Below are positions 94 through 13,387 of a stretch of DNA of 25,421 nucleotides, piece after piece; positions within the stretch are counted from its first letter, which is position 1, and each line of letters opens with the position of its first letter. The notes under the pieces are model-generated. The model saw only the letters and a program-made list of their open reading frames with translations. It was not told the origin of the DNA and searched no databases. The stretch is taken from IMG/VR virus record IMGVR_UViG_3300008629_000030, positions 1 through 25,421 of that record. One strand, written 5' to 3'. Source of the DNA: a virus. The translations under genes and the position numbers were made by a program.

Positions 94-122
94 ATTATAC
101 TATAAAAAAACTCAAAAGTCAA
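94..122 (-). promoter_or_regulatory. Sigma70-type promoter (TTGACT-17-TATAAT) with shared 13-nt block
   Basis: On the minus strand the -35 box TTGACT (122-117) and the -10 box TATAAT (99-94) are separated by exactly 17 nt. The 13-mer CTTGACTTTTGAG (123-111) around the -35 box recurs exactly at two other promoters in this window (5764-5752 and 9564-9552). Seven bases separate the -10 box from the ATG at 86, so transcription would start at about 87. It overlaps the end of the exonuclease gene. It is probably an early promoter read by the unmodified host polymerase. Confidence 0.8.
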
Positions 123-817
123 GTCTTTTGTTGATATATTTTAAAATCGTCTATTGCTGTTATTAGTTGTGGGATATAGTCATCAACTGTTTTTACGAAT
201 ATTTGAGGTACACCGCTATCGGGCATAATGAATATTACCAGTTGATCACAGGGGATATTAGTTCTCTCTGTAAACATCTTTGCATATGCAGTTCCTTGAA
301 TGAAATAATTCTCAATCCATTCTTCCTTCTTATCTTTATTAGAAGTCTTGAAATCTACAACAGATGTTACACCATCATATTCGGCAATCATATCTACTGC
401 ACCAGCGACCCCATACTCATCTGAATACAAGTAATCTTCGATACAATAAATATCACCGATTTTGTTTTCTAGTATCTGTATAGCCTCACAAAACAGAAAC
501 CATACAGCAGGATTTTTCGCAAGAGCATCTCCACTAAACGAATCAAAGTCATCAATCTCATTTAGGAAATATTTTTCCATGAGACTGTGAAACTGTGTTC
601 CTCTAGTGGCAGCCTTTCTCATAATTCTATTGGCTTCCTCATTACCTACTCTCTTTCTCCACTCATGCAATCCTTCCTTATCTCGTATCGATAGTACGGA
701 TGTTATAGAGGGATAAGATCCACTAGGAGTATCGTAATGTCTCCTTCCACCAATATTTGTTCTCACAAGTTTAGGTAACTCAGGAATGAGTTTCCTATCA
801 TAATTTTTTAGTATCAT
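119..817 (-). CDS. RecB/Cas4-like PD-(D/E)XK exonuclease
   Basis: This 232-residue protein carries the motif set of RecB-family nucleases in order: GTQFH with H77, D142 in AGAVDM, the D155-F-K157 core after a beta-strand pair, and the helix motif Q174-x-x-x-Y178. That pattern identifies a metal-dependent nuclease of the PD-(D/E)XK superfamily, usually an exonuclease acting on DNA ends. The length fits the single-domain phage exonucleases. It would act in the cytoplasm in recombination or DNA processing. It follows the M15 peptidase gene: the peptidase stop and this start overlap at 817. The 13-nt -35 block of the next promoter overlaps its stop codon. The nuclease fold is well supported; substrate and polarity are not shown by the sequence. 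Confidence 0.85.
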   Translation of the reverse strand: MILKNYDRKLIPELPKLVRTNIGGRRHYDTPSGSYPSITSVLSIRDKEGLHEWRKRVGNEEANRIMRKAATRGTQFHSLMEKYFLNEIDDFDSFSGDALAKNPAVWFLFCEAIQILENKIGDIYCIEDYLYSDEYGVAGAVDMIAEYDGVTSVVDFKTSNKDKKEEWIENYFIQGTAYAKMFTERTNIPCDQLVIFIMPDSGVPQIFVKTVDDYIPQLITAIDDFKIYQQKT

Positions 818-1293
818 TATTTACTTACAAATCCATTTCTGTAAACTACCTTACCGCCCGTTTTAAGTGCAGTAAGTATTTTCTTACGATTACCCATTAG
901 GTTGTAACTACAATGTACCCAACCACTATTAGGATTGACACCATCATAAAACTCTAAAATGAGTTGGTCAAATTCTAAATTATTTGCAATCCATTTTGCA
1001 AGGTCAGGATTTGGTGTAGAAAACGATTCAAAATCAGCTGCCTGGCCATTACAATGTTGACTTGTTTTCGACCCACCAACCTTTGCATTTAATGCAGGAC
1101 TTCTATAACCTGAATTGATTGTAATAACACCAAACTGATCCCTTACTGGTTGTAAAATATGAATTGCAAGATGTGTTAGATTTACAAGGTGTATATCACT
1201 AGGTGAGTTGTCTACATTTAATCGTTCTGCCGTTGCACTTTTGACCATTTCTGAGAGTGCAAAATTCTTTGATAATCTTATAGTCTCAGCCAT
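817..1293 (-). CDS. Peptidase M15-type endolysin (D-Ala-D-Ala carboxypeptidase-like)
   Basis: The 158-residue product matches the peptidase M15A pattern. It has INSGYRSPALN (about 59-69), then SQHCNGQAADF with zinc ligands H80 and D87, and WVHCSY with the third ligand H127; E114 in LILEFYD is a candidate catalytic residue. Such enzymes cut peptidoglycan cross-links or stem peptides and serve as endolysins in many phages. No signal peptide is visible, so it would need a holin or another route to the periplasm. The start overlaps the end of the upstream 107-residue gene by 8 nt. It is one of two predicted wall hydrolases here, the other being the secreted SleB-type enzyme at 2621-3175. Confidence 0.85.
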   Translation of the reverse strand: MAETIRLSKNFALSEMVKSATAERLNVDNSPSDIHLVNLTHLAIHILQPVRDQFGVITINSGYRSPALNAKVGGSKTSQHCNGQAADFESFSTPNPDLAKWIANNLEFDQLILEFYDGVNPNSGWVHCSYNLMGNRKKILTALKTGGKVVYRNGFVSK

Positions 1294-1609
1294 GTATCAC
1301 TCCATCTTCTTGTACAATATCCACCTTTCCAGAGTTTGGATCATATTTAACCTTAAAACTTAATTCAATAGGTTTCAATGTTCCATCCTTTAAGGATATT
1401 GGTAGTTTACCTTCTATTGCACCTTGAAGTGCTTCTGTTGCACTTTCAAATTTATGTGCAGGGTCACTTTTAATTAATTCATCTAATTCTTCTTTTGCAT
1501 CATCTGGAAGAATATCATCTATCATCTTCTCAACGTGCTCTATCGCTAGATCCTGAGCCTTATCTACAATAAGACCAGAAACTACGTTAAATAGTAGCAT
1601 TGGTAACAT
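1286..1609 (-). CDS. Unknown small protein with hydrophobic N-terminus
   Basis: The 107-residue product starts with a short hydrophobic stretch (MLPMLLFNVVSGLIV, residues 1-15), then an acidic helical segment rich in D and E (about 20-50) and a beta-rich C-terminal part (about 70-107). I do not recognise a family. It lies directly between PhoH and the M15 peptidase, overlapping the latter by 8 nt, and its ATG overlaps the PhoH stop codon (TAATG). The position before an endolysin and the hydrophobic start make a membrane or lysis-related role conceivable, but the single hydrophobic segment is short and no holin family is evident. Confidence 0.7.
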   Translation of the reverse strand: MLPMLLFNVVSGLIVDKAQDLAIEHVEKMIDDILPDDAKEELDELIKSDPAHKFESATEALQGAIEGKLPISLKDGTLKPIELSFKVKYDPNSGKVDIVQEDGVIHG

Positions 1610-2313
1610 TATTTTCTATCTCCTAATCCAGTATTATATTTTTGGATGATATAGGAACGGACTAAACCGCTTCTGACTATATCACCAATATCAAACTCAC
1701 ATGAATAGAACTCATCCATTTCGCTGATAATTTTTATGAACTGACCTAATCCTGCTTTTTCTTCATCTTCTCTTAGGTCTGTCTGGTCAAAATCTCCTGA
1801 GAACATAATCTTGGACTCCTGACCAACTCTGGTCATGATTGTGTCCAATTCGTGGAAGTTTAGATTTTGACATTCATCTACAAGGATAATAGAATTATCT
1901 AATGTAATCCCTCTCAAAAAGGATGTTGATAAGAATGAAATATTTCCTTGTTTCTTTAGTTCATCATACAACATATCAAACTGTTCTTCTGTTGAGAGTT
2001 TGAACATGAATCGTAACATATTGTCGTAGGGAACTTGATATAAAGAACTTTTGTCTTGGTCATCAGTAGGCATGAACGCAAGACTTCTAGTAGGCATTAA
2101 AGACCTTACTATGTGTATACAGTTATAATTTTTGGAGGGGTCAAGAACTTCTTTGATTGCATTATAAAGAAGAACGAAAGTTTTTCCTGTTCCTGCTGGC
2201 CCGTATAAAAACATATTCTTACCGGCTGCATATTGATTAAAAACCTCTATTTGGTTTTTAGTAACACCCTTCATTTCAACTAACTGATCATGAGTAAACA
2301 TTTGTGTTTGCAT
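1609..2313 (-). CDS. phoH: PhoH-like P-loop ATPase
   Basis: The 234-residue product has a Walker A motif GPAGTGKT (38-45), a Walker B motif ILVDECQN (143-150) and the PhoH-typical segment FSGDFDQTDL (171-180). PhoH-like ATPases resemble helicase cores and are common in marine phages; their role in phage infection is unsettled, with phosphate stress and RNA metabolism both proposed. The length fits single-domain phage PhoH proteins. It starts 2 nt after the FmdB-like gene and overlaps the next start (TAATG at 1609). A second in-frame Met (residue 5, MFTHDQ) could also be the start; no strong Shine-Dalgarno decides between them. Confidence 0.9.
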   Translation of the reverse strand: MQTQMFTHDQLVEMKGVTKNQIEVFNQYAAGKNMFLYGPAGTGKTFVLLYNAIKEVLDPSKNYNCIHIVRSLMPTRSLAFMPTDDQDKSSLYQVPYDNMLRFMFKLSTEEQFDMLYDELKKQGNISFLSTSFLRGITLDNSIILVDECQNLNFHELDTIMTRVGQESKIMFSGDFDQTDLREDEEKAGLGQFIKIISEMDEFYSCEFDIGDIVRSGLVRSYIIQKYNTGLGDRK

Positions 2314-2315
2314 AA

Positions 2316-2594
2316 TTATGTGTCTAAGTTAGAGCCTGGGTTCTGGCGTTTTATTTCTTTTAATCTATCTTTCCACCCATCACTTGTATGTCTACGAAAG
2401 GAATCTCTCATAGAAATCGGTGAGGGGAATTGTGGAACTATTTGTAATACACAAGGAGTTCCACTTTCTCCTCCTTCACTATTACAAGAACCATATTTTT
2501 GAGGATTTTCTATAGGAATATTCCTATCATCTATTTTAAAAGTATCCTCAAATTCAAATTCACAATTCTTACATTTATATTGATATGTAGGCAT
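2316..2594 (-). CDS. FmdB-type zinc-ribbon protein
   Basis: The 92-residue protein begins MPTYQYKCKNCEFEFE, which is the FmdB/CxxC regulatory-protein signature, with a first metal knuckle C8-x-x-C11. The second pair is spread out (C37 and C48) rather than a tight CxxC, so the ribbon has an unusual loop. The C-terminal half is basic and has a predicted helix (DGWKDRLKEIKRQN). FmdB-like zinc ribbons are found in many phages and bacteria with no settled function. It sits 2 nt before PhoH and is probably cotranscribed with it. Confidence 0.75.
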   Translation of the reverse strand: MPTYQYKCKNCEFEFEDTFKIDDRNIPIENPQKYGSCNSEGGESGTPCVLQIVPQFPSPISMRDSFRRHTSDGWKDRLKEIKRQNPGSNLDT

Positions 2595-2620
2595 ATTATA
2601 ATTTCAATCTTTAATAGTAT

Positions 2621-3175
2621 TTATCTATAAAATATATGATCTCCAATCCTACCAACCTTTGGGTATTGTGTTGACCATCTAGGTGAAATCTCATATGTAT
2701 GATAGTATCTTGCACCTTCTGTAAAATCTAGCCCTTCTGATTTTATTTTATCATATTGGAGCATTGCAAGATTTGCTGTCTTTAATGTCACCTTATAAGC
2801 TTCTGGATTTCGTACCTCATCTGAGGCACCATCACAATACCAACTGAATTGGCATCTATCACGTTTTGGAAATCCATCACTAGTATGTATTCCTTGATAT
2901 ACAACATCACATATTGTATTAGGAAATGCAGAATCATTAACTCTATTTAAAGTGACTAATGCGACTGCAAATTGGCCTGCAAATGGTTCGTTTCGAGCTT
3001 CAAAATATATGTTCGTTGCAAGACAAGTTAATTGTTTTTTTCTATTTTCCATTATAGTTTCATATGATTTATATGTCCATATGTTTTCAATATGTGTATC
3101 TGAAACAACTTTTGCACTTCCCAAAGGAAGTACGGAAAATAAAATTAAAACAACTGTTGTGAACAGTTTTTTCAT
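2621..3175 (-). CDS. Secreted SleB-type cell wall hydrolase
   Basis: The 184-residue product has an N-terminal signal-like segment (MKKLF then a hydrophobic stretch to about residue 20, ending in GSAKV). The hydrolase domain begins at about residue 50. It contains the SleB-type core NIYFEARNE with the likely catalytic E59, followed by AVALVTLNRV, FPNTICDVVYQ and CQFSWYCDG. SleB-family enzymes cleave the glycan strands of peptidoglycan. A signal peptide or signal-anchor would let it reach the periplasm without a holin. It lies downstream of a T4-late-like promoter (3382-3375) and an 18-codon ORF, which suggests late expression for lysis. Confidence 0.85.
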   Translation of the reverse strand: MKKLFTTVVLILFSVLPLGSAKVVSDTHIENIWTYKSYETIMENRKKQLTCLATNIYFEARNEPFAGQFAVALVTLNRVNDSAFPNTICDVVYQGIHTSDGFPKRDRCQFSWYCDGASDEVRNPEAYKVTLKTANLAMLQYDKIKSEGLDFTEGARYYHTYEISPRWSTQYPKVGRIGDHIFYR

Positions 3176-3287
3176 ATTACCTTAATTTAATATGATCTTC
3201 AATCTTTTTTAGATATAGAAAGTCCAACAAGATATTATCAACCGCAGATCGTTAAACGGTTAAACTTTAAATTATAAATTGGGGGAA
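3176..3287. other. Noncoding stretch with short inverted repeat
   Basis: No gene is seen in this part of the 198-nt gap between the SleB-type hydrolase and the DUF6433-like gene. It holds an inverted repeat AACCG/CGGTT (3240-3244 and 3257-3261) with a 12-nt loop, but no T-tract follows on the minus strand, so it does not look like a typical intrinsic terminator. I checked the region for a tRNA cloverleaf and found none. Confidence 0.5.
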
Positions 3288-3344
3288 TTAAAAGTGGAGA
3301 GAAGATAGTCCATCTTCTACACTCATTCCGTTTCGGATTTGCAT
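3288..3344 (-). CDS. 18-codon mini-ORF behind a late-like promoter
   Basis: An ATG at 3344 opens an 18-codon frame (MQIRNGMSVEDGLSSLHF) that ends at TAA, 3290-3288. A GGAG ribosome binding site lies 8 nt upstream, and a TATAAATA box lies about 30 nt before the ATG. The promoter, ribosome site and start codon line up as for a genuine phage gene, although the product is tiny. It could be a micropeptide, a leader peptide acting on the SleB-type gene about 110 nt downstream, or the relic of a longer gene. I recognise no family. Confidence 0.4.
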   Translation of the reverse strand: MQIRNGMSVEDGLSSLHF

Positions 3345-3373
3345 ATCTATAGACTCCCTAAAAGATTGTACTA

Positions 3374-3913
3374 TTATTTATACTCTTGAAAGTCCTCATT
3401 CCACTCAAAAGCCTCCAATACGACCTGAGTAGATAATCCCTTATAAACTCGATGAAGGTTTTTGTCCTTTACTTCACATAAAAGTTTAGCCTCATCTTTA
3501 TGCAACCCTTCTAACAATCTGATAAACATACGTTCTCTAAGTGTTGCTTGAAGATTTGGATCTGCACTCTTTCCATTGGTTTTGACAAAATGCCAAAGAG
3601 TATTACCTTCGGTTCTTAACAACATATGTTCAGTACCTTCTGGAGCTTCATTTTCAATATATGGTGGAGCTCCATTTGGTAATTCTGATTCAATTTTAGG
3701 GTTAAAAGACCATTGACAAATTTGTCGTAAGGCCAAACAATCTTCTTCTTGTAAAATTTTAACCTTTTGTGCTTTTGTTTTTGCACCATGAACTTTAGAT
3801 AAAATTTCACTAAGAAGTAAATCTCTAACCTTAATTGCTGATTGAGATCTTTCTGGATATGCACTTACAGATCCATCACTATTACTATCAAATTCTACTG
3901 GTGATTGTGCCAT
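3374..3913 (-). CDS. Conserved T4-like marine phage protein (DUF6433-like)
   Basis: The 179-residue product is mostly helical, with a segment RERMFIRLLEGLHKDEAKLLCEVKDKNL (about 126-153, first residues RERMFIRLLEGL) that resembles a protein recurring in T4-like cyanophages and related phages, annotated as DUF6433. The match is from memory. No catalytic motif is visible and the function is unknown. It ends at the late-like promoter box and starts 2 nt after the RNase H gene, so it probably belongs to the replication block transcript. Confidence 0.75.
   Translation of the reverse strand: MAQSPVEFDSNSDGSVSAYPERSQSAIKVRDLLLSEILSKVHGAKTKAQKVKILQEEDCLALRQICQWSFNPKIESELPNGAPPYIENEAPEGTEHMLLRTEGNTLWHFVKTNGKSADPNLQATLRERMFIRLLEGLHKDEAKLLCEVKDKNLHRVYKGLSTQVVLEAFEWNEDFQEYK
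3375..3382 (-). promoter_or_regulatory. T4-late-like promoter box TATAAATA
   Basis: The minus strand reads TATAAATA, the exact T4 late promoter core, overlapping the stop codon of the DUF6433-like gene. The expected start of transcription is at about 3369, upstream of the GGAG site and ATG of the 18-codon ORF and of the secreted hydrolase. The same octamer also occurs by chance inside coding regions here (8865-8872 and 15398-15405), so the call rests on its intergenic position. Confidence 0.55.
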
Positions 3914-3914
3914 A

Positions 3915-4757
3915 TTAAAATTCTCCTATATCTTGTATTAAATTATTAAGTTTCCTTTCGATAAAATAATTCAAAAGGTTACTTCGTTTTCCTTGCGGAA
4001 TTACATCAAACTGTCGATTAATCTGATCAACTATGTTTAATGGTGTAAATTGTAAATCAATTAGTTTCATATTTCTATGATAATTTCTTAATTGTTCTTC
4101 AGTACAAAAATCTACTGGACTTTCACCCAGCCATGATTCTACCTTCTTTTTAGACAATGGTTTCTGTCTAATCTTATCTACGATACAATTATCAGATGAT
4201 AAAAAATTAGGAATACCATCTGATGAATCACCTCGTAAAATATGTTCTTTTAAATAATTATATGGATTATCAGCTGTCACTAATTTCTTGGTGATAGGAC
4301 TGTATTGTTTTACATTTTTGTGTGTTTGTAGTTGTATGAAATCCTTATCACCAGAAATTATCATTACCTTTTCTGATCCTGCTTTTCTTGCAAGAACTCC
4401 TATAATATCATCTGCTTCTGCCTCATCAATTTCAAGATACTTGTATGGGAAAAACTCTTTAAGTTCAGATTTGATAGTATCAAGACATCCAAATATTTGT
4501 GACCAATCTCTACTATCAGCTTCTCTATTAGTTTTTCTAGATGCTTTGTATTGTGGAAAGTGTTCCCTTCTCCAAGAGTGTCTACCATCGCAACATAAGA
4601 CCAACTCACCATATTCTCCGTGATATTTTGACCGATACATTCTGAGACTATTCAGAACCATATGTCGAACCATGTCAATATCAACTTCTGATTGTTCTTT
4701 TCCCATAGACATCATCGTGGATGCCACCATTATCTGACTTAAATCAATTAATATCAT
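3915..4757 (-). CDS. rnh: T4-type RNase H / flap 5'-nuclease
   Basis: Read from the ATG at 4757 the protein has 280 residues, close to T4 RNase H (305). The start is set by a 4-nt ATGA overlap with the upstream stop codon; an upstream in-frame ATG at 4781 would add eight residues that break the family's MILIDLSQ opening. Acidic metal ligands of the FEN/5'-nuclease family are present: D5, D57 (CCDGRHSWRR), the cluster E112-E114-D116-D117 (DEAEADDIIG), D137 and D139 (SGDKDF), and D177/D180 (GDSSDGIPN). The enzyme removes RNA primers and flaps from lagging strands. A primase gene of gp61 type in the same block fits this role. Confidence 0.9.
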   Translation of the reverse strand: MILIDLSQIMVASTMMSMGKEQSEVDIDMVRHMVLNSLRMYRSKYHGEYGELVLCCDGRHSWRREHFPQYKASRKTNREADSRDWSQIFGCLDTIKSELKEFFPYKYLEIDEAEADDIIGVLARKAGSEKVMIISGDKDFIQLQTHKNVKQYSPITKKLVTADNPYNYLKEHILRGDSSDGIPNFLSSDNCIVDKIRQKPLSKKKVESWLGESPVDFCTEEQLRNYHRNMKLIDLQFTPLNIVDQINRQFDVIPQGKRSNLLNYFIERKLNNLIQDIGEF

Positions 4758-5008
4758 AAGTATAATCCATATTTTCCACAATGGAAATATTCATCATTTA
4801 CACCTTCAGGCGTCATTTTATAATATTCCATATATTCTCTTTTTACGGCATCACCATCATTTGTTACTCGCAAACAAGCATCCCATTTAGAATATTTTCT
4901 TTTAGATATTAAAAAATATTCAAATGTATGTCTTATATCAACAAATTCAGTATCAGTTCCTTGTGGCTTACCTAATGGTTTGCCTGTATATAATGGTTCA
5001 TTTTTCAT
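4754..5008 (-). CDS. Small conserved phage protein of unknown function
   Basis: The 84-residue product has no recognised domain. It contains an aromatic-rich middle (FEYFLISKRKYSKWDACLRV, residues 29-48) and an acidic tail (YFHCGKYGLYL). It is translationally coupled to RNase H through an ATGA overlap at 4757-4754, and it starts 3 nt after the stop codon of the 150-residue gene. Its place in the replication cluster suggests a replication accessory role, but that is context only. Confidence 0.7.
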   Translation of the reverse strand: MKNEPLYTGKPLGKPQGTDTEFVDIRHTFEYFLISKRKYSKWDACLRVTNDGDAVKREYMEYYKMTPEGVNDEYFHCGKYGLYL

Positions 5009-5011
5009 AAT

Positions 5012-5464
5012 TTATTCACTTGTCCATATTGTTTGAATGTCTGGATACCAGACACCTTTAGTTCGTTTCGGTGTGCCATCTTCATGATAGGCCATTGCAA
5101 CACATTTCCATTGTGTTTTCTTTTCCTCATCATCTCCCATGAAATCAGAAATCCAATCCCCTGTTCTAAGATAATGTTCCATCATCCTAATATATGCTTT
5201 CGCACCATCAGCATTAATTTTATCTGCAATGGATTGTTTGGGAGTTGTGCCTCTCCTGCGAGAGTTGGTAAGAAATGCAGCTGCCTTTTCCTTGTTATGT
5301 TTAATAGATTTCTTAATAGATTTCAATGACAAGGGGTCATCATCTGGTTTTGCTAAGACAGATGGATATACGTTTTTGTATTCTGCTGGGGCTCTCTTAC
5401 TTCGTGCCTTCGTAAGTTGATCACGAAGCTCCTGTTTTCGTTCTTCACTTAGTTTTTTTCTCAT
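5012..5464 (-). CDS. Unknown basic phage protein in the replication cluster
   Basis: The 150-residue product starts with a strongly basic helical region (MRKKLSEERKQELRDQLTKA) and continues with a lysine-rich stretch (about 45-75) and a more conserved-looking C-terminal part (TGDWISDFMGDDEEKKTQW, about 101-119, then VWYPDIQTIW). I do not recognise the family, though proteins of this build occur near RNase H in T4-like phages. It overlaps the upstream gene by ATGA at 5464-5461. The basic N-terminus could bind nucleic acid; nothing in the sequence proves this. Confidence 0.75.
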   Translation of the reverse strand: MRKKLSEERKQELRDQLTKARSKRAPAEYKNVYPSVLAKPDDDPLSLKSIKKSIKHNKEKAAAFLTNSRRRGTTPKQSIADKINADGAKAYIRMMEHYLRTGDWISDFMGDDEEKKTQWKCVAMAYHEDGTPKRTKGVWYPDIQTIWTSE

Positions 5465-5727
5465 GATATTCCATAATAATCAAGTAAAATTTCAATCATC
5501 TCATTTGGATTTATAATAAGATCATTGAGTTTTATAGGTTTAGGCCCAGTATAAGTAAACCATTTTTCAAATTGTCCACTACCCATATATAAGTTTTGAA
5601 CAAATCCATAATCTAAAGCTACAACATCCTCATAGGAATAATCCTTTGGTTTTGATCTAACTTCTAAAATGGTTGGGACTGAACCATCATCAATAAGACT
5701 TTTCAATTTTGTAAGTCTTTTATTCAT
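5461..5727 (-). CDS. Small unknown protein, probably from a leaderless mRNA
   Basis: The 88-residue product (MNKRLTKLKSLIDDGSVPTI) has no recognised domain. Its ATG lies seven bases after a perfect TATAAT box, so the predicted transcript starts one base before the ATG and has no ribosome binding site. The next in-frame Met is residue 48, so a later start is unlikely. The stop overlaps the next start (ATGA). As the first gene after the promoter it leads a run that continues to RNase H and perhaps beyond. Confidence 0.75.
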   Translation of the reverse strand: MNKRLTKLKSLIDDGSVPTILEVRSKPKDYSYEDVVALDYGFVQNLYMGSGQFEKWFTYTGPKPIKLNDLIINPNEMIEILLDYYGIS

Positions 5728-5734
5728 ATCTTAT

Positions 5735-5763
5735 ATTATAACATTATAAATCTCAAAAGTCAA
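5735..5763 (-). promoter_or_regulatory. Sigma70-type promoter (TTGACT-17-TATAAT) with shared 13-nt block
   Basis: On the minus strand TTGACT (5763-5758) and TATAAT (5740-5735) are 17 nt apart. The 13-mer CTTGACTTTTGAG (5764-5752) is identical to those at 123-111 and 9564-9552. The distance from the -10 box to the ATG at 5727 is seven bases, the same as at the promoter at 94-122. The -35 box overlaps the stop codon of the GIY-YIG-like gene. Confidence 0.8.
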
Positions 5764-6188
5764 GTTTTTTCTTCCATGAGTGTTGTAAAATATCTGTTCA
5801 TAATATTATCATTATAATATAACTTTTCGCCATGATGATTAACAGCTTCTAACACATTATGGTTGAATAGTAACTTGGTTTCGTTGTAATTTACTTGGCC
5901 TTTTTTTTTCCATAGACCAAGTATTTCTCTCTTAAATCTGTCACCACCAGATTGCTGTACTAATTGTTGAACTTTCTTAGATGAACTGTAATAGGTTTTC
6001 CAATCACTTTCTGATCGTACTCTTTTTCTCTGACCTTTTTTCTTTCGATTCTTATGGAAATATTTTCTCCCAATATACATCTTTCCATTTTCAAGGTCAG
6101 TTAAAAGATAACAGAAACCAAAATAATCTTCTATATCTTCACTTTCAAATGCTACATCATTATATAGCCAAGGATTTTCGTAACTCAT
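5760..6188 (-). CDS. GIY-YIG-like endonuclease candidate
   Basis: The 142-residue protein has FCYLLTDLENGKMYIGRKYF (residues 25-44), which fits a GIY-YIG core: Y27 in the first strand, then Y38-I39-G40. R84 or R87 in GGDRFKREIL and E103 in NYNETKLL are candidate active-site residues. The segment between is very basic (HKNRKKKGQRKRVR, 45-58), as expected for DNA binding. GIY-YIG enzymes in T4-like phages include homing endonucleases (Seg type) and the DNA-degrading DenA; which of these it resembles cannot be told. A GGAG site lies 7 nt before the ATG. No intron or inserted gene boundary is seen beside it. Confidence 0.6.
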   Translation of the reverse strand: MSYENPWLYNDVAFESEDIEDYFGFCYLLTDLENGKMYIGRKYFHKNRKKKGQRKRVRSESDWKTYYSSSKKVQQLVQQSGGDRFKREILGLWKKKGQVNYNETKLLFNHNVLEAVNHHGEKLYYNDNIMNRYFTTLMEEKT

Positions 6189-6214
6189 AAATACTCCACA
6201 TGGGAATATTTAGG

Positions 6215-6382
6215 TCAATAATAATCTTCCTCTTCTTCATCATCAAAACCTTCTTCTATTTCAATATCTTCTCCACCACAAAAAGCACAAAATCCTATTT
6301 CATATCTTGACAAATTTAGATTATGTTGTAAACTAAATGTCGCATTGCAATCCTTGCAATCTACTTCTACTTCTTCTATCAT
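6215..6382 (-). CDS. 55-residue double-CxxC zinc-ribbon protein
   Basis: A short frame from the ATG at 6382 to TGA at 6217-6215 encodes 55 residues with two tight metal knuckles, C9-x-x-C12 (VDCKDCNATF) and C32-x-x-C35 (GFCAFCGGED), and a very acidic tail of nearly all D, E and Y. This is the layout of a small zinc ribbon. It begins 9 nt after the ribonucleotide reductase stop codon, and no strong ribosome site is seen. The two CxxC pairs and the position make an accessory redox or metal role for the reductase conceivable, but a generic zinc-ribbon regulator is as likely. Confidence 0.75.
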   Translation of the reverse strand: MIEEVEVDCKDCNATFSLQHNLNLSRYEIGFCAFCGGEDIEIEEGFDDEEEEDYY

Positions 6383-6391
6383 AACTTGCTA

Positions 6392-8377
6392 TTAAATGAT
6401 TTCACAACTGTCACCAGAGCACGCAACTGTTTGGGCTCCTGTAGTATTATCCTCTGTTTCGTATTTAGAAAGTTTAGAATAATCAATAATTGGGAAATCT
6501 GCAAGCATTGTATCATAAGTTTTTTCATCGATTTCCTCAAAAGGGGCAAGTTGATAGATGTGGTCATCTTTAGGTAAGAAACTCACCCCCACTAAGTCAT
6601 CGAAATTTTCATATACAAAGTTACCAACTGTAAACCATTCATCTGGCTTGACATATATTGTAGCTGATACTGTATGTTCAGTATAATTGTGTTTTATCTT
6701 TAACCATTGTTTTAATTGAGAAATTGCATCAACATCCTTTACCATCACCGACCCCTCTGGAGCCTTTACTGGAAATTCAACTACCCATGTTTGAGCAGTT
6801 TCTACTGGTTGTCCCACTTCTGGATAAAATTTTACTCCTTGATCCCTCATCATTTTGAACAATGGATCTGTTGCTGAAATTCTCACCCTTCGTATGTAAT
6901 ATGGTGCAAATCTTGGATGGAAACCCGATGCAGAATTTACTAATGTTGAAACTGTTCCACTAGGTTTTGTAGTAGTGATGGCCGCAGATCTGTTTATCTT
7001 CAATCGTTCAGCTGTTTCTACATTCACACCTATAGAATAATCTCTAAGAGCTTGTAAATTCTCTGGTGTTAATACATCTGGATTGTCCATCTGTCCTGTC
7101 ATAGAAACACCTAAGAGTCTTTCTTCTTCTGCGTTCTTCTTCCAATCCTCATGCAAGTCATCTAAAAGAGAAAAATCAGTCATTGTTGATTGTATAGTTC
7201 CAATTAGAGTTGCAACTTTAATCTTCTCCATCAATGTTTCAAGTGTATCTTCTGCACGAATAACTACTTCTGTGAGGTTACAGAACCCTCTAGGCCTTAA
7301 TATTATTTCACCACAGGGATTTGTAGTCCAATCTTGTCTCTTACGCCTTCGTTTTGGTATTAAACTATTGATAGAATAACGATTAAATATACCACGTTCT
7401 CCTGTACCACTCTCTGCAAGTGCTAACCATTCCTTCATGAAGTCAATGGAGTTTGGTTTAATGTCATAAATTGCACTATTGTTACTCATGGCTCTATGAC
7501 CATTAGTGATCCAGAACTGGCCCTGTTTTGCGTTCCTCATTCCACTATCGTAAAGGTCTGAAAGAGTAATAATTGATGATCTTCTGACACCACCTACGAC
7601 TACTGAATTTGCAATTTTGGTAATAATATCAAAAGCATTAGTAGAACTTAATTTTCTATCTCTATGTGCTTCTACCATGTGTTTGATAAAGTGCAAAGTT
7701 TCATCCAAAGGCCCTGGCCCAGATGACCTACCACCAAAAGTTTTGAGTCTAGCTCCTTGTGGTCTGAGTTTGGATAAATCCCATTCTACATCGCAACCTT
7801 CCCACATAGCTCGACAAACTTCCATTGTTCCTACTGCCCAACCTTCTTTGGAATCTTCAAATACAACCTTTTGTCTTTCACCATTCAGTTTCTTAACTTT
7901 GGGAATTTTTTCAATGTATTTTTTAGAAACATCAACACCGACTCCAGCACCACTCATCAATAGGAAATAAACCTCTGCAAAAGAATGAAGTCCATCTATT
8001 GGTACGGTTGAACAATTATAGATTGCAACATTATTAATGTCTGCTGGTTTTCCAGCAGTCCACAATAGTCTCATTGAAGGCATTACCTTCATTTCTAAAA
8101 TGTACTGATGTATTAATTCATAATCTGATTTTTTTAATTTATTTTTACTAACTTTCTTGAGAAATATTACCGCTCTTTCAACTGTTTCATCCCACGTTTC
8201 TCTACGTTTCTTATTGTCATCCCATCTTGAGTATGTTCTATAGTATACAAATTTACTCATTTCATTTTGAAAAGGGTCTATTTTTGGGGTTGGTTCTGTA
8301 ACAGTTTTTTTATGAAGTGTGTTGGTTATAGGTTTATAAGTCTGTGGTGTTGATACGGTTTGCATTTGAGGATTCAT
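6392..8377 (-). CDS. nrdJ: Adenosylcobalamin-dependent (class II, monomeric) ribonucleotide reductase
   Basis: The product (661 residues from the ATG at 8377) matches the monomeric B12-dependent ribonucleoside-triphosphate reductase of Lactobacillus leichmannii type. All five functional cysteines are found: C122 (YNCSTVP) and C366 (FCNLTE) as the redox pair, C355 in NPCGEI as the thiyl site with N353 and E357, and C653 and C658 in the tail (ACSGDSCEII). The spacings C355-C366 (11) and C653-C658 (5) equal those recalled for the Lactobacillus enzyme. It makes deoxynucleotides for phage replication. The start at 8377 is preferred over 8389 because GGAAG lies 5 nt upstream and the ATG overlaps the primase stop (ATGA). 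Confidence 0.92.
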   Translation of the reverse strand: MNPQMQTVSTPQTYKPITNTLHKKTVTEPTPKIDPFQNEMSKFVYYRTYSRWDDNKKRRETWDETVERAVIFLKKVSKNKLKKSDYELIHQYILEMKVMPSMRLLWTAGKPADINNVAIYNCSTVPIDGLHSFAEVYFLLMSGAGVGVDVSKKYIEKIPKVKKLNGERQKVVFEDSKEGWAVGTMEVCRAMWEGCDVEWDLSKLRPQGARLKTFGGRSSGPGPLDETLHFIKHMVEAHRDRKLSSTNAFDIITKIANSVVVGGVRRSSIITLSDLYDSGMRNAKQGQFWITNGHRAMSNNSAIYDIKPNSIDFMKEWLALAESGTGERGIFNRYSINSLIPKRRRKRQDWTTNPCGEIILRPRGFCNLTEVVIRAEDTLETLMEKIKVATLIGTIQSTMTDFSLLDDLHEDWKKNAEEERLLGVSMTGQMDNPDVLTPENLQALRDYSIGVNVETAERLKINRSAAITTTKPSGTVSTLVNSASGFHPRFAPYYIRRVRISATDPLFKMMRDQGVKFYPEVGQPVETAQTWVVEFPVKAPEGSVMVKDVDAISQLKQWLKIKHNYTEHTVSATIYVKPDEWFTVGNFVYENFDDLVGVSFLPKDDHIYQLAPFEEIDEKTYDTMLADFPIIDYSKLSKYETEDNTTGAQTVACSGDSCEII

Positions 8378-9387
8378 ATTTTCTTCCATTGATTAATTTT
8401 GAGATATGCGTTCAATCCTCGATATGTATGTACATCAATAAATTGTTTGATATTTTTAGTTCCTGAAAGAACTATGTCATTAATATCTTTACTGTTTAGT
8501 TCAGGTGGCCAAATTACTACATTATAATTCTTGTCCACAGATTTAAACATACGTTCAACAGTATGTTTATTTCGTGGTTCGTTATCGTAAATAATAGTGG
8601 TTGATTCTGGACTCAATTCCAATAAGTTCAAATCGGCACCGGCAACTGCTAAACAGTTGTCTATAAAGAGAGAATCTAATGGGCCTTCAACAACGTATGT
8701 ATGAGAATTAAAATCAATACGTTCAAGTCCATAAATCTTCTCTTTTTCTGAAACAATTTTTAATGTGATATATCTAGGATCTTCGTTACCAAAGGCTCTT
8801 CCTTGATAAGCGAATATTTCTCCAGCCCTGTCAAAGAAGGGTATGACCAAGCGTGGATAATCTATATTTATACTCTTAAATTTTTCGGGAAATATTGTGT
8901 GTGACCACTCGTAAAATTTCTCTGAAAAATATAATTTGTCCCAATGTTTTTTGGGAATTTGTCTTTTTTCTAAGTATTGTATGGCTGGATGACCATCTTC
9001 CAGTTCACTAAATTTGACTAACTTATCCAAGTGCTTATTCATGGATTTGTCAAACTTAGGAGCTTCAAATTTAAATGGAGTTTGGTCAGGAATAGGAGTA
9101 TTCCTTTGAGTTTCACCTTCCTTATACTTTTCTACACGATACTCAGTATAAAGACCATGATCTATTTGTTTGAGGAAATTATTGAAAGTAAGACCCACAC
9201 CACAATTATGACACTTATAAAAAAAAGATGCTTTCTTGCGGTATACAAAACCTCTGGCTTTATTCTTATGTTTTTTGGAATCCCCACATATGGGGCAACG
9301 AAAGTTCCAAAGATTATCCCTGACTTTCTTAAATTTTTCCACCCTAGAGGTACATAGATTTATGTACTTCTGGTCAATATAACTCAT
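8374..9387 (-). CDS. 61: DNA primase, T4 gp61 type
   Basis: The 337-residue product has an N-terminal zinc-binding domain with C31-x-x-C34 (FRCPICGDS) and C59-x-x-C62 (YKCHNCGVG), then a Toprim-like part with VVEGPLDSLF and VAGADLNLL that carries the acidic catalytic residues. This fits the T4 gp61 primase family (342 residues), which lays RNA primers for the lagging strand together with the gp41 helicase. No clear Shine-Dalgarno precedes the ATG at 9387. A sigma70-like promoter inside the upstream gene (9563-9535) could drive it. The downstream reductase is coupled by ATGA. Confidence 0.9.
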   Translation of the reverse strand: MSYIDQKYINLCTSRVEKFKKVRDNLWNFRCPICGDSKKHKNKARGFVYRKKASFFYKCHNCGVGLTFNNFLKQIDHGLYTEYRVEKYKEGETQRNTPIPDQTPFKFEAPKFDKSMNKHLDKLVKFSELEDGHPAIQYLEKRQIPKKHWDKLYFSEKFYEWSHTIFPEKFKSINIDYPRLVIPFFDRAGEIFAYQGRAFGNEDPRYITLKIVSEKEKIYGLERIDFNSHTYVVEGPLDSLFIDNCLAVAGADLNLLELSPESTTIIYDNEPRNKHTVERMFKSVDKNYNVVIWPPELNSKDINDIVLSGTKNIKQFIDVHTYRGLNAYLKINQWKKI

Positions 9388-9413
9388 AATGTATTAAATA
9401 ATAAAGTTCTAAT

Positions 9414-9716
9414 TTAAGTGTGAACTGCCCAAAAAGTTGAAAATACAGTCATTGCAAAAGTTAATGCAAGCATTATACCTCCCAATGTCCATTTCCATTT
9501 TTCTATTCCACCAATATTTTTTTCATTTTCATCTATTTTATCATACAATTTCTCAAAAGTCAAGTTAATTTCGTCTGAAATTTCTCTTTTCATGGTACTC
9601 ATTCTAGAATGAACCTCTTTAAAATCTTCTCTATTTTGTGTGATGTGATCTTCAAAAGAACTTTCGATTTTCTCGATTTTAGTTTTGAGAACTTCAACAT
9701 CGGCTTTTACTGTCAT
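9414..9716 (-). CDS. Coiled-coil protein with C-terminal membrane segment (XhlA-like)
   Basis: The 100-residue product has a long charged coiled coil (about 5-70, VLKTKIEKIESSFEDH and onwards) and one hydrophobic segment near the end (WTLGGIMLALTFAMTVFSTF, residues 75-94). This layout resembles XhlA-type holin-associated proteins and other small phage membrane proteins. It may anchor in the inner membrane and take part in lysis, but the match is one of layout only. It overlaps the upstream stop (ATGA at 9716-9713). The gene contains an internal promoter that shares the 13-nt block. Confidence 0.7.
   Translation of the reverse strand: MTVKADVEVLKTKIEKIESSFEDHITQNREDFKEVHSRMSTMKREISDEINLTFEKLYDKIDENEKNIGGIEKWKWTLGGIMLALTFAMTVFSTFWAVHT
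9535..9563 (-). promoter_or_regulatory. Internal sigma70-like promoter (TTGACT-17-TAAAAT)
   Basis: Inside the coiled-coil gene the minus strand has TTGACT (9563-9558), a 17-nt spacer and TAAAAT (9540-9535), with the same 13-mer (9564-9552) as the other two promoters. The -10 box departs from consensus at one base. A transcript starting at about 9528 would reach the primase ATG at 9387 after about 140 nt and then the reductase and downstream genes. Confidence 0.6.
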
Positions 9717-12759: not shown

Positions 12760-13350
12760 TTATGCTACGACTGTGATTGTACCACAAGCAGTACCTTGAG
12801 CTGAACTAATTGCAAGTTCTGCATTTTGTGGTGTATCACTTGTATCTTTAATTGTTGAACTACTTGCCAACACAATACTTTGAGCTGCAACTGACAATAC
12901 ATCTCCTGCACTAGTTGCAGCGTTTGCAGCTGCAATTACAAGAGTAAATGTCAATTCATGTGTACCAGTACCCGATGCGTATGTAAGGGTGTGGTTTGCA
13001 CGATTATCGTTAGTAACTACTAAAGTAGGATTACTAACTGCAACATTGACAATTTCGTTATATCTGACTGTTACACTAAGTGTACCACCAGCAGACTTAT
13101 CAAATGTAGTTATATTCCAATCAACTGTATTGATTGTGGCCTCTCCAAGACCAGTTGTTCCAGACGCTCCGGCCAATCCACCGATTGCTACAAGTATTTC
13201 TGGATCGGCACTTGTATTTCCATTTCCTGTCATTGCGGATCCGGCTTCCACAACCCAACCACTTTGATTGGCATAGACATCTTTTTGTTGAGCTGTAGTT
13301 AGAAACTTAGGTAGTGCTTCCGACCCCTCAACTGCTCCCCATAAAGGCAT
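12760..13350 (-). CDS. Virion structural protein, beta-rich
   Basis: The 196-residue product starts MPLWGAVEGSEALPKFLTTA, followed by QQKDVYANQSGWVVEAG, an opening I recall from small structural proteins of T4-like marine phages. The rest (about 70-196) is a beta-sandwich-like, Ig-like or bacterial-surface-type domain with alternating strands (LSVTVRYNEIVNVAVSNPTL, HTLTYASGTGTHELTFTLVI). An AAGGAG ribosome site lies 7 nt before the ATG, and a CATAAATA late-like box lies about 30 nt upstream. A decorative or neck/appendage role is likely but not proven. Confidence 0.75.
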   Translation of the reverse strand: MPLWGAVEGSEALPKFLTTAQQKDVYANQSGWVVEAGSAMTGNGNTSADPEILVAIGGLAGASGTTGLGEATINTVDWNITTFDKSAGGTLSVTVRYNEIVNVAVSNPTLVVTNDNRANHTLTYASGTGTHELTFTLVIAAANAATSAGDVLSVAAQSIVLASSSTIKDTSDTPQNAELAISSAQGTACGTITVVA

Positions 13351-13379: not shown

Positions 13380-13387
13380 TATTTATG
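13380..13387 (-). promoter_or_regulatory. Late-like promoter box CATAAATA
   Basis: The minus strand reads CATAAATA, one base off the T4 late core TATAAATA, at the very end of the HAD gene and about 30 nt before the ATG of the structural gene, with an AAGGAG site in between. The placement fits late expression of the structural genes. A single-base deviation in AT-rich DNA keeps confidence moderate. Confidence 0.4.

Follow-up and report, generated by a model that had tools for sequence, protein, structure and literature searches.

The window analyzed here is the whole 25,421-nt stretch of IMG/VR record IMGVR_UViG_3300008629_000030 and, judged by its protein matches, comes from a marine T4-like myovirus that has Pelagibacter phages Mosig and HTVC008M among its relatives. 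The DNA primase (gp61-like, 8374-9387, minus strand, phrog_47 2.5e-74) has its best matches in Pelagibacter phage Mosig (46%) and in cyanophages, and PhoH is closest to the proteins of S-BM3, HTVC008M and P-SSM7, at 58-59%. The primase is followed by a gene for a B12-dependent ribonucleotide reductase (NrdJ-like, 6392-8389, minus strand), the best matches of which are found in Roseobacter phages at 47-50% identity. At this position HTVC008M and Mosig carry NrdA/NrdB genes, for a large and a small subunit.

Three sites in the window share an exact block of sequence. The 13-mer CTTGACTTTTGAG has three exact matches, at 111-123, 5752-5764 and 9552-9564, all of which are on the minus strand; the plus strand of the 25 kb window has no exact copy. 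The sequence-only reading had given the repeated unit as 13 nt. The repeat stands, but the block common to the three sites is 14 nt long, ACTTGACTTTTGAG, the extra base being an A in front. There are 11 nt from the 13-mer to a TATAAT hexamer at sites 1 and 2 and to TAAAAT at site 3. A sigma70 scan returned TTGACT-17-TATAAT at 122-94 and 5763-5735 and TTGACT-17-TAAAAT at 9563-9535, in agreement with the exact matches and with the earlier description of a minus-strand block occurring three times with a -10 box at 17-nt spacing. At all three sites TTGACT matches TTGACA at five of six bases, and the TATAAT-like hexamer, at 17 nt, falls within the 16-18 nt of a sigma70-type promoter. The 13-mer itself exceeds chance, with a count of zero in 100 order-2 Markov simulations based on the window. 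Some 13-mer reached three or more copies in 18 of the 100, which makes the number of copies, taken by itself, no more than mildly unusual. The weight given to these putative promoters is placed on their geometry and conservation, not on repetition.

Sites 1 and 2 appear to be promoters squeezed into gene junctions, with the stop codon of the upstream gene in the -35 hexamer and the -10 hexamer 7 nt from the next ATG. Promoter 1 (94-124, minus strand; block ACTTGACTTTTGAG at 124-111, -35 TTGACT at 122-117, -10 TATAAT at 99-94) lies downstream of an exonuclease gene (119-817, minus strand, phrog_298 3.4e-67), whose TGA stop at 119-121 falls within the -35 hexamer. Seven nucleotides separate the end of the -10 hexamer at 94 from the ATG at 87 of the gene served, the start of which occupies 1-87 on the minus strand and which encodes a homologue of the T4 late-transcription coactivator gp33, as judged from its sequence and from the homologue in relative L203. 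The gene order in L203 is gp33 (PF16805 1.4e-23), gp59 (PF08993 1.3e-14) and gp32 (PF08804 1.1e-42) by Pfam match, and by synteny with relatives promoter 1 would drive gp33 and then gp59 and gp32. In the Mosig record (MT647606.1), an annotated tmRNA at 111467-111805 adjoins the late-transcription accessory gene.

Promoter 2 (5735-5765, minus strand; block at 5765-5752, -35 TTGACT at 5763-5758, -10 TATAAT at 5740-5735) has the same arrangement. The TGA stop (5760-5762, minus strand) of a SegE-like GIY-YIG gene (5760-6188, minus strand, PF19835 9.6e-46) falls within its -35 hexamer, and an 88-aa gene (5461-5727, minus strand) begins with an ATG at 5727, 7 nt past the -10 hexamer. The 88-aa protein found no family match in PHROG and Pfam profile comparisons. 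Its gene is the first of a minus-strand run from 5727 to 3915 in which an RNase H-like exonuclease (3915-4781, phrog_107 1e-55) comes last, and promoter 2 would serve this cluster of small genes. Because the -10 hexamer lies 7 nt before the ATG at both sites, the transcripts are predicted to be leaderless or nearly so; with a start about 7 nt past the -10 hexamer, they would begin on the ATG or beside it. The absence of a Shine-Dalgarno sequence was dropped as proof of leaderless mRNA because a recognizable one precedes only about 14 of the 39 starts in this AT-rich window.

The core of these promoters is conserved. At site 1 of 14 relatives, where the flanks vary, TTGAC[T/A]TTT is kept in all and the -10 hexamer stays at 17 nt, and some have CTA, CAC or GGG in place of GAG. 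The orthologues of promoter 2 behave like site 1, with GAG, GAA or CAT at the GAG position.

Site 3 (9535-9565, minus strand; block at 9565-9552, -35-like TTGACT at 9563-9558, -10-like TAAAAT at 9540-9535) is intragenic rather than intergenic. It spells ..INLTFEKL.. inside a 100-aa ORF (9414-9716, minus strand) that has homologues at 62-96% identity, and the end of its -10 hexamer is 147 nt from the primase ATG at 9387. It could be a coding coincidence in which the peptide NLTFEKLYDKI chances to spell a promoter, a possibility that we take seriously without favoring it: the site is wholly contained in a conserved ORF whose amino acids are kept at those identities, and TAAAAT is a weaker -10 hexamer than TATAAT. 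However, 11 homologues keep the AAC, TTG, TTT and AAA codons of NLTFEK unchanged, whereas codons for other Leu, Asn and Phe residues vary, and all six site-3 codons of the window recur in L129, compared with 66% of conserved-residue codons overall, which is a modest excess. In addition, in many distant phages (43-51% primase identity) a CTTGAC-17-TATAAT-like promoter stands where the equivalent gene ends and immediately precedes the ATG of the primase; the gap to the ATG is 6-7 nt in 16 of 52 unique promoters, within a wide -10-to-ATG range of 4-33 nt, a spread that speaks against the interpretation favored below. On these comparisons site 3 is probably a promoter, with the primase as its likely target, and it would probably feed both the primase and NrdJ. 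For the earlier identification of the three sites as promoters, support is good at sites 1 and 2 and moderate at site 3, which lies in coding sequence.

The pairing of the 13-mer with a spaced -10 box recurs among viruses, as in at least 119 viral stretches the 13-mer is accompanied by TANAAT 10-12 nt downstream. Among viral loci picked with the -10 allowed at 10-12 nt, it lies exactly 11 nt after the 13-mer in 113 of 125 occurrences, at 10 nt in five and at 12 nt in two. No paper on the 13-mer turned up in a literature search. To judge which bases are particular to this lineage we used an unbiased viral sample of 125 sites matching CTTGACT-17-TATAATA. T occupies the next three positions at 82, 61 and 54% of these sites and the GAG positions have no preference, which makes CTTGACTTTT ordinary and leaves GAG as the part peculiar to the lineage. 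TTTGAG occurs at none of the 125 sites, on which ground we rejected the 13-mer as a special virus-wide element. Ten of the 13 bases in the block are ordinary, and GAG alone is lineage-specific.

The ordinary part of the block resembles known promoters. The published sigma70 (RpoD) consensus of S. meliloti is CTTGAC-N17-CTATAT (PMC2873474), and the sites described here share with it the C before TTGAC, the 17-nt spacing and a -10 element in the expected place. They differ from it in having a -10 of the TATAAT type rather than CTATAT, in carrying a T-run and GAG, and in being compressed against the next ATG. CTTGAC would be the -35 element in its alphaproteobacterial form, an argument that is indirect for this phage; the T-run would be a feature often seen when strong phage promoters have such a context, and GAG a lineage-specific residue. 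A scan of the cultured relative HTVC008M found CTTGAC[T/A] promoters just upstream of the primase (118213), DNA polymerase (97020), gp55 (80353) and exonuclease (144003) genes and, some 300 nt ahead of the ssDNA-binding gene, a further one (4987). Several of them begin within 3-5 nt of the end of the preceding CDS. These promoters are like those of the window in their CTTGAC[T/A] -35 element and T-run, 17-nt spacing and TATAAT, whereas they have TTTTT and TTGTGATATAAT where the window has GAG, and several have 11-31 nt between the -10 and the ATG. Relatives do have CTTGAC-17-TATAAT upstream of replication genes, as expected of an early/replication set. Host promoter mimicry was dropped, as a genome scan gave 91 matches, mostly from Clostridia and with no SAR11 organism among the titles listed.

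An added sequence requirement next to the -35 region had been proposed to explain the bases shared beyond the hexamer. In such a model, a DNA-binding protein of the phage or its host (a MotA-like activator or repressor) would read TTTGAG beside the -35 and thereby define a regulated promoter class. Most close relatives do share GAG between the two junction sites, 1 and 2, and L214 and L215 retain TTTGAG though their -35 is TTGACA. G is found at the last GAG position in nine of 11 distinct site-1 sequences and five of nine distinct site-2 sequences. This is more often than might be left by drift alone, so GAG may be under weak selection. However, orthologous promoters that keep both hexamers have GAG swapped for CTA, CAC, GGG, CAT or GAA, and this replacement argues against an obligatory site for an extra factor, as does the generality of TTT in viral CTTGACT promoters. 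In a composition-matched control, the 13-mer with AGG in place of GAG was found in 48 viral stretches belonging to 30 flank clusters, which represent independent viral families. The GAG 13-mer is only slightly above this, with at least 38 clusters, and includes several big groups of near-identical sites, some of them podovirus-like. We rejected an extra factor site on the variability of GAG and this control; a separate factor needing TTTGAG is unlikely, and that one governs a regulated class of promoters here is highly improbable.

Instead of a -35 element, T4 middle promoters have a TGCTTTA-like MotA box at -30. They are comparable to the window sites in belonging to a T4-like phage and in serving gp32, gp59 and primase functions, but they lack a good -35 element, which the sites here possess, and the sequence at the MotA-box position does not fit the box in a by-eye comparison with the T4 consensus, so a T4 MotA-dependent middle promoter was rejected. 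The MotA activation domain (PF09114) had no match in 11 partial records of the lineage, in which the positive controls were equally silent, and pelagimyophages have been reported to be without motA and asiA (PMC7029224). None of the three sites has a T4 late promoter, that is, a TATAAATA -10 without a -35 element. Late-type boxes are present elsewhere on the minus strand, with CATAAATA at 13387, about 30 nt before the ATG of ORF 12760-13350, and TATAAATA at 3382.

The sites might instead be unrelated sigma70 promoters that converged on one sequence with no copying between them. CTTGACTTTT is frequent in unrelated viral promoters and the same 13-mer arose in podovirus-like contigs, both of which are as convergence would have it, but two relatives make this account unlikely. 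In L069, the site-2 promoter is identical at 29 of 29 positions, variable spacer included, to the site-1 promoter of L018, L202, L123, L054 and L113, while its 90-nt upstream flank is 96% identical to site 2 of L202 and 38% identical to site 1; the remaining site-2 promoters have 66-83% identity to that of L069. In L213, the exonuclease and gp33 genes are separated by a 1.2 kb insert (620-1890) that contains a 332-aa ORF and a tRNA gene and is flanked by CTTGACTTTT promoters, the second of which has GAG and sits past a terminator-like hairpin, before gp33. A site-1-type promoter at site 2 and a promoter on each side of an insertion both fit recombination between promoter copies, and they lend support to the suggestion, made from the window alone, of a recently copied promoter unit. 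The L069 case may alternatively reflect faulty assembly or an unusual run of mutations.

The interpretation that we favor, with a probability of roughly three in four, is that a marine T4-like myovirus uses the three sites as host sigma70 (RpoD)-type early/replication promoters, which all read along the coding (minus) strand and are alike through selection and occasional copying. The sequences show the motif with its geometry and conservation, the gene identities by homology and the mosaic promoter of one relative; from these we infer the use of sigma70, the transcription start, the timing, leaderless translation and gene conversion. The likeness of the copies would be kept by selection on RNA polymerase contacts, and one promoter would occasionally be copied onto another via short-tract recombination, possibly by gene conversion. 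A more elaborate model, which we regard as doubtful, is that these are very compact promoter cassettes, with the stop codon in the -35 and the mRNA start at the ATG, and that gene conversion keeps them alike, which would give the replication operons a common strength and timing without a middle-gene activator, with new genes entering there. The sites are a real regulatory feature and not a new kind of switch or system.

In a published survey, prediction of middle and late promoters failed in pelagimyophages (PMC7029224), and the present finding extends a promoter set that is poorly described. As a conserved family upstream of primase, DNA polymerase, gp55 and gp33, CTTGAC[T/A]TTT-N14-TATAAT is a concrete and testable motif for replication genes in ocean viruses of very high abundance. 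The mosaic in L069 also points to short recombination as a way in which promoters can pass from one operon to another.

Other repeated sequences were seen alongside the block. A podovirus-like group of contigs (L005, L025, L042 and similar) has repeated promoters, CTTGACTTTTGAGTAAAAGTATGGTATAATA, with an inverted repeat, ACTTTTGAGTAAAAGT, and a 48-nt stretch of one such contig is 92% identical to Pseudoalteromonas phage Slicky01. Within the window, many minus-strand ORFs between 11039 and 25405 have a similar N-terminus (MKTFKEHLSE, MKTFKQYLRE, MKTFKTYLKE, MKTYKDILEY, MKTFKELKTK, MKTYKTFAEL and MKTFKHFLLE), which we take to resemble the capsid-targeting N-terminus of T4 internal proteins. The 14-mer ATGAAAACATTTAA is present in three copies.
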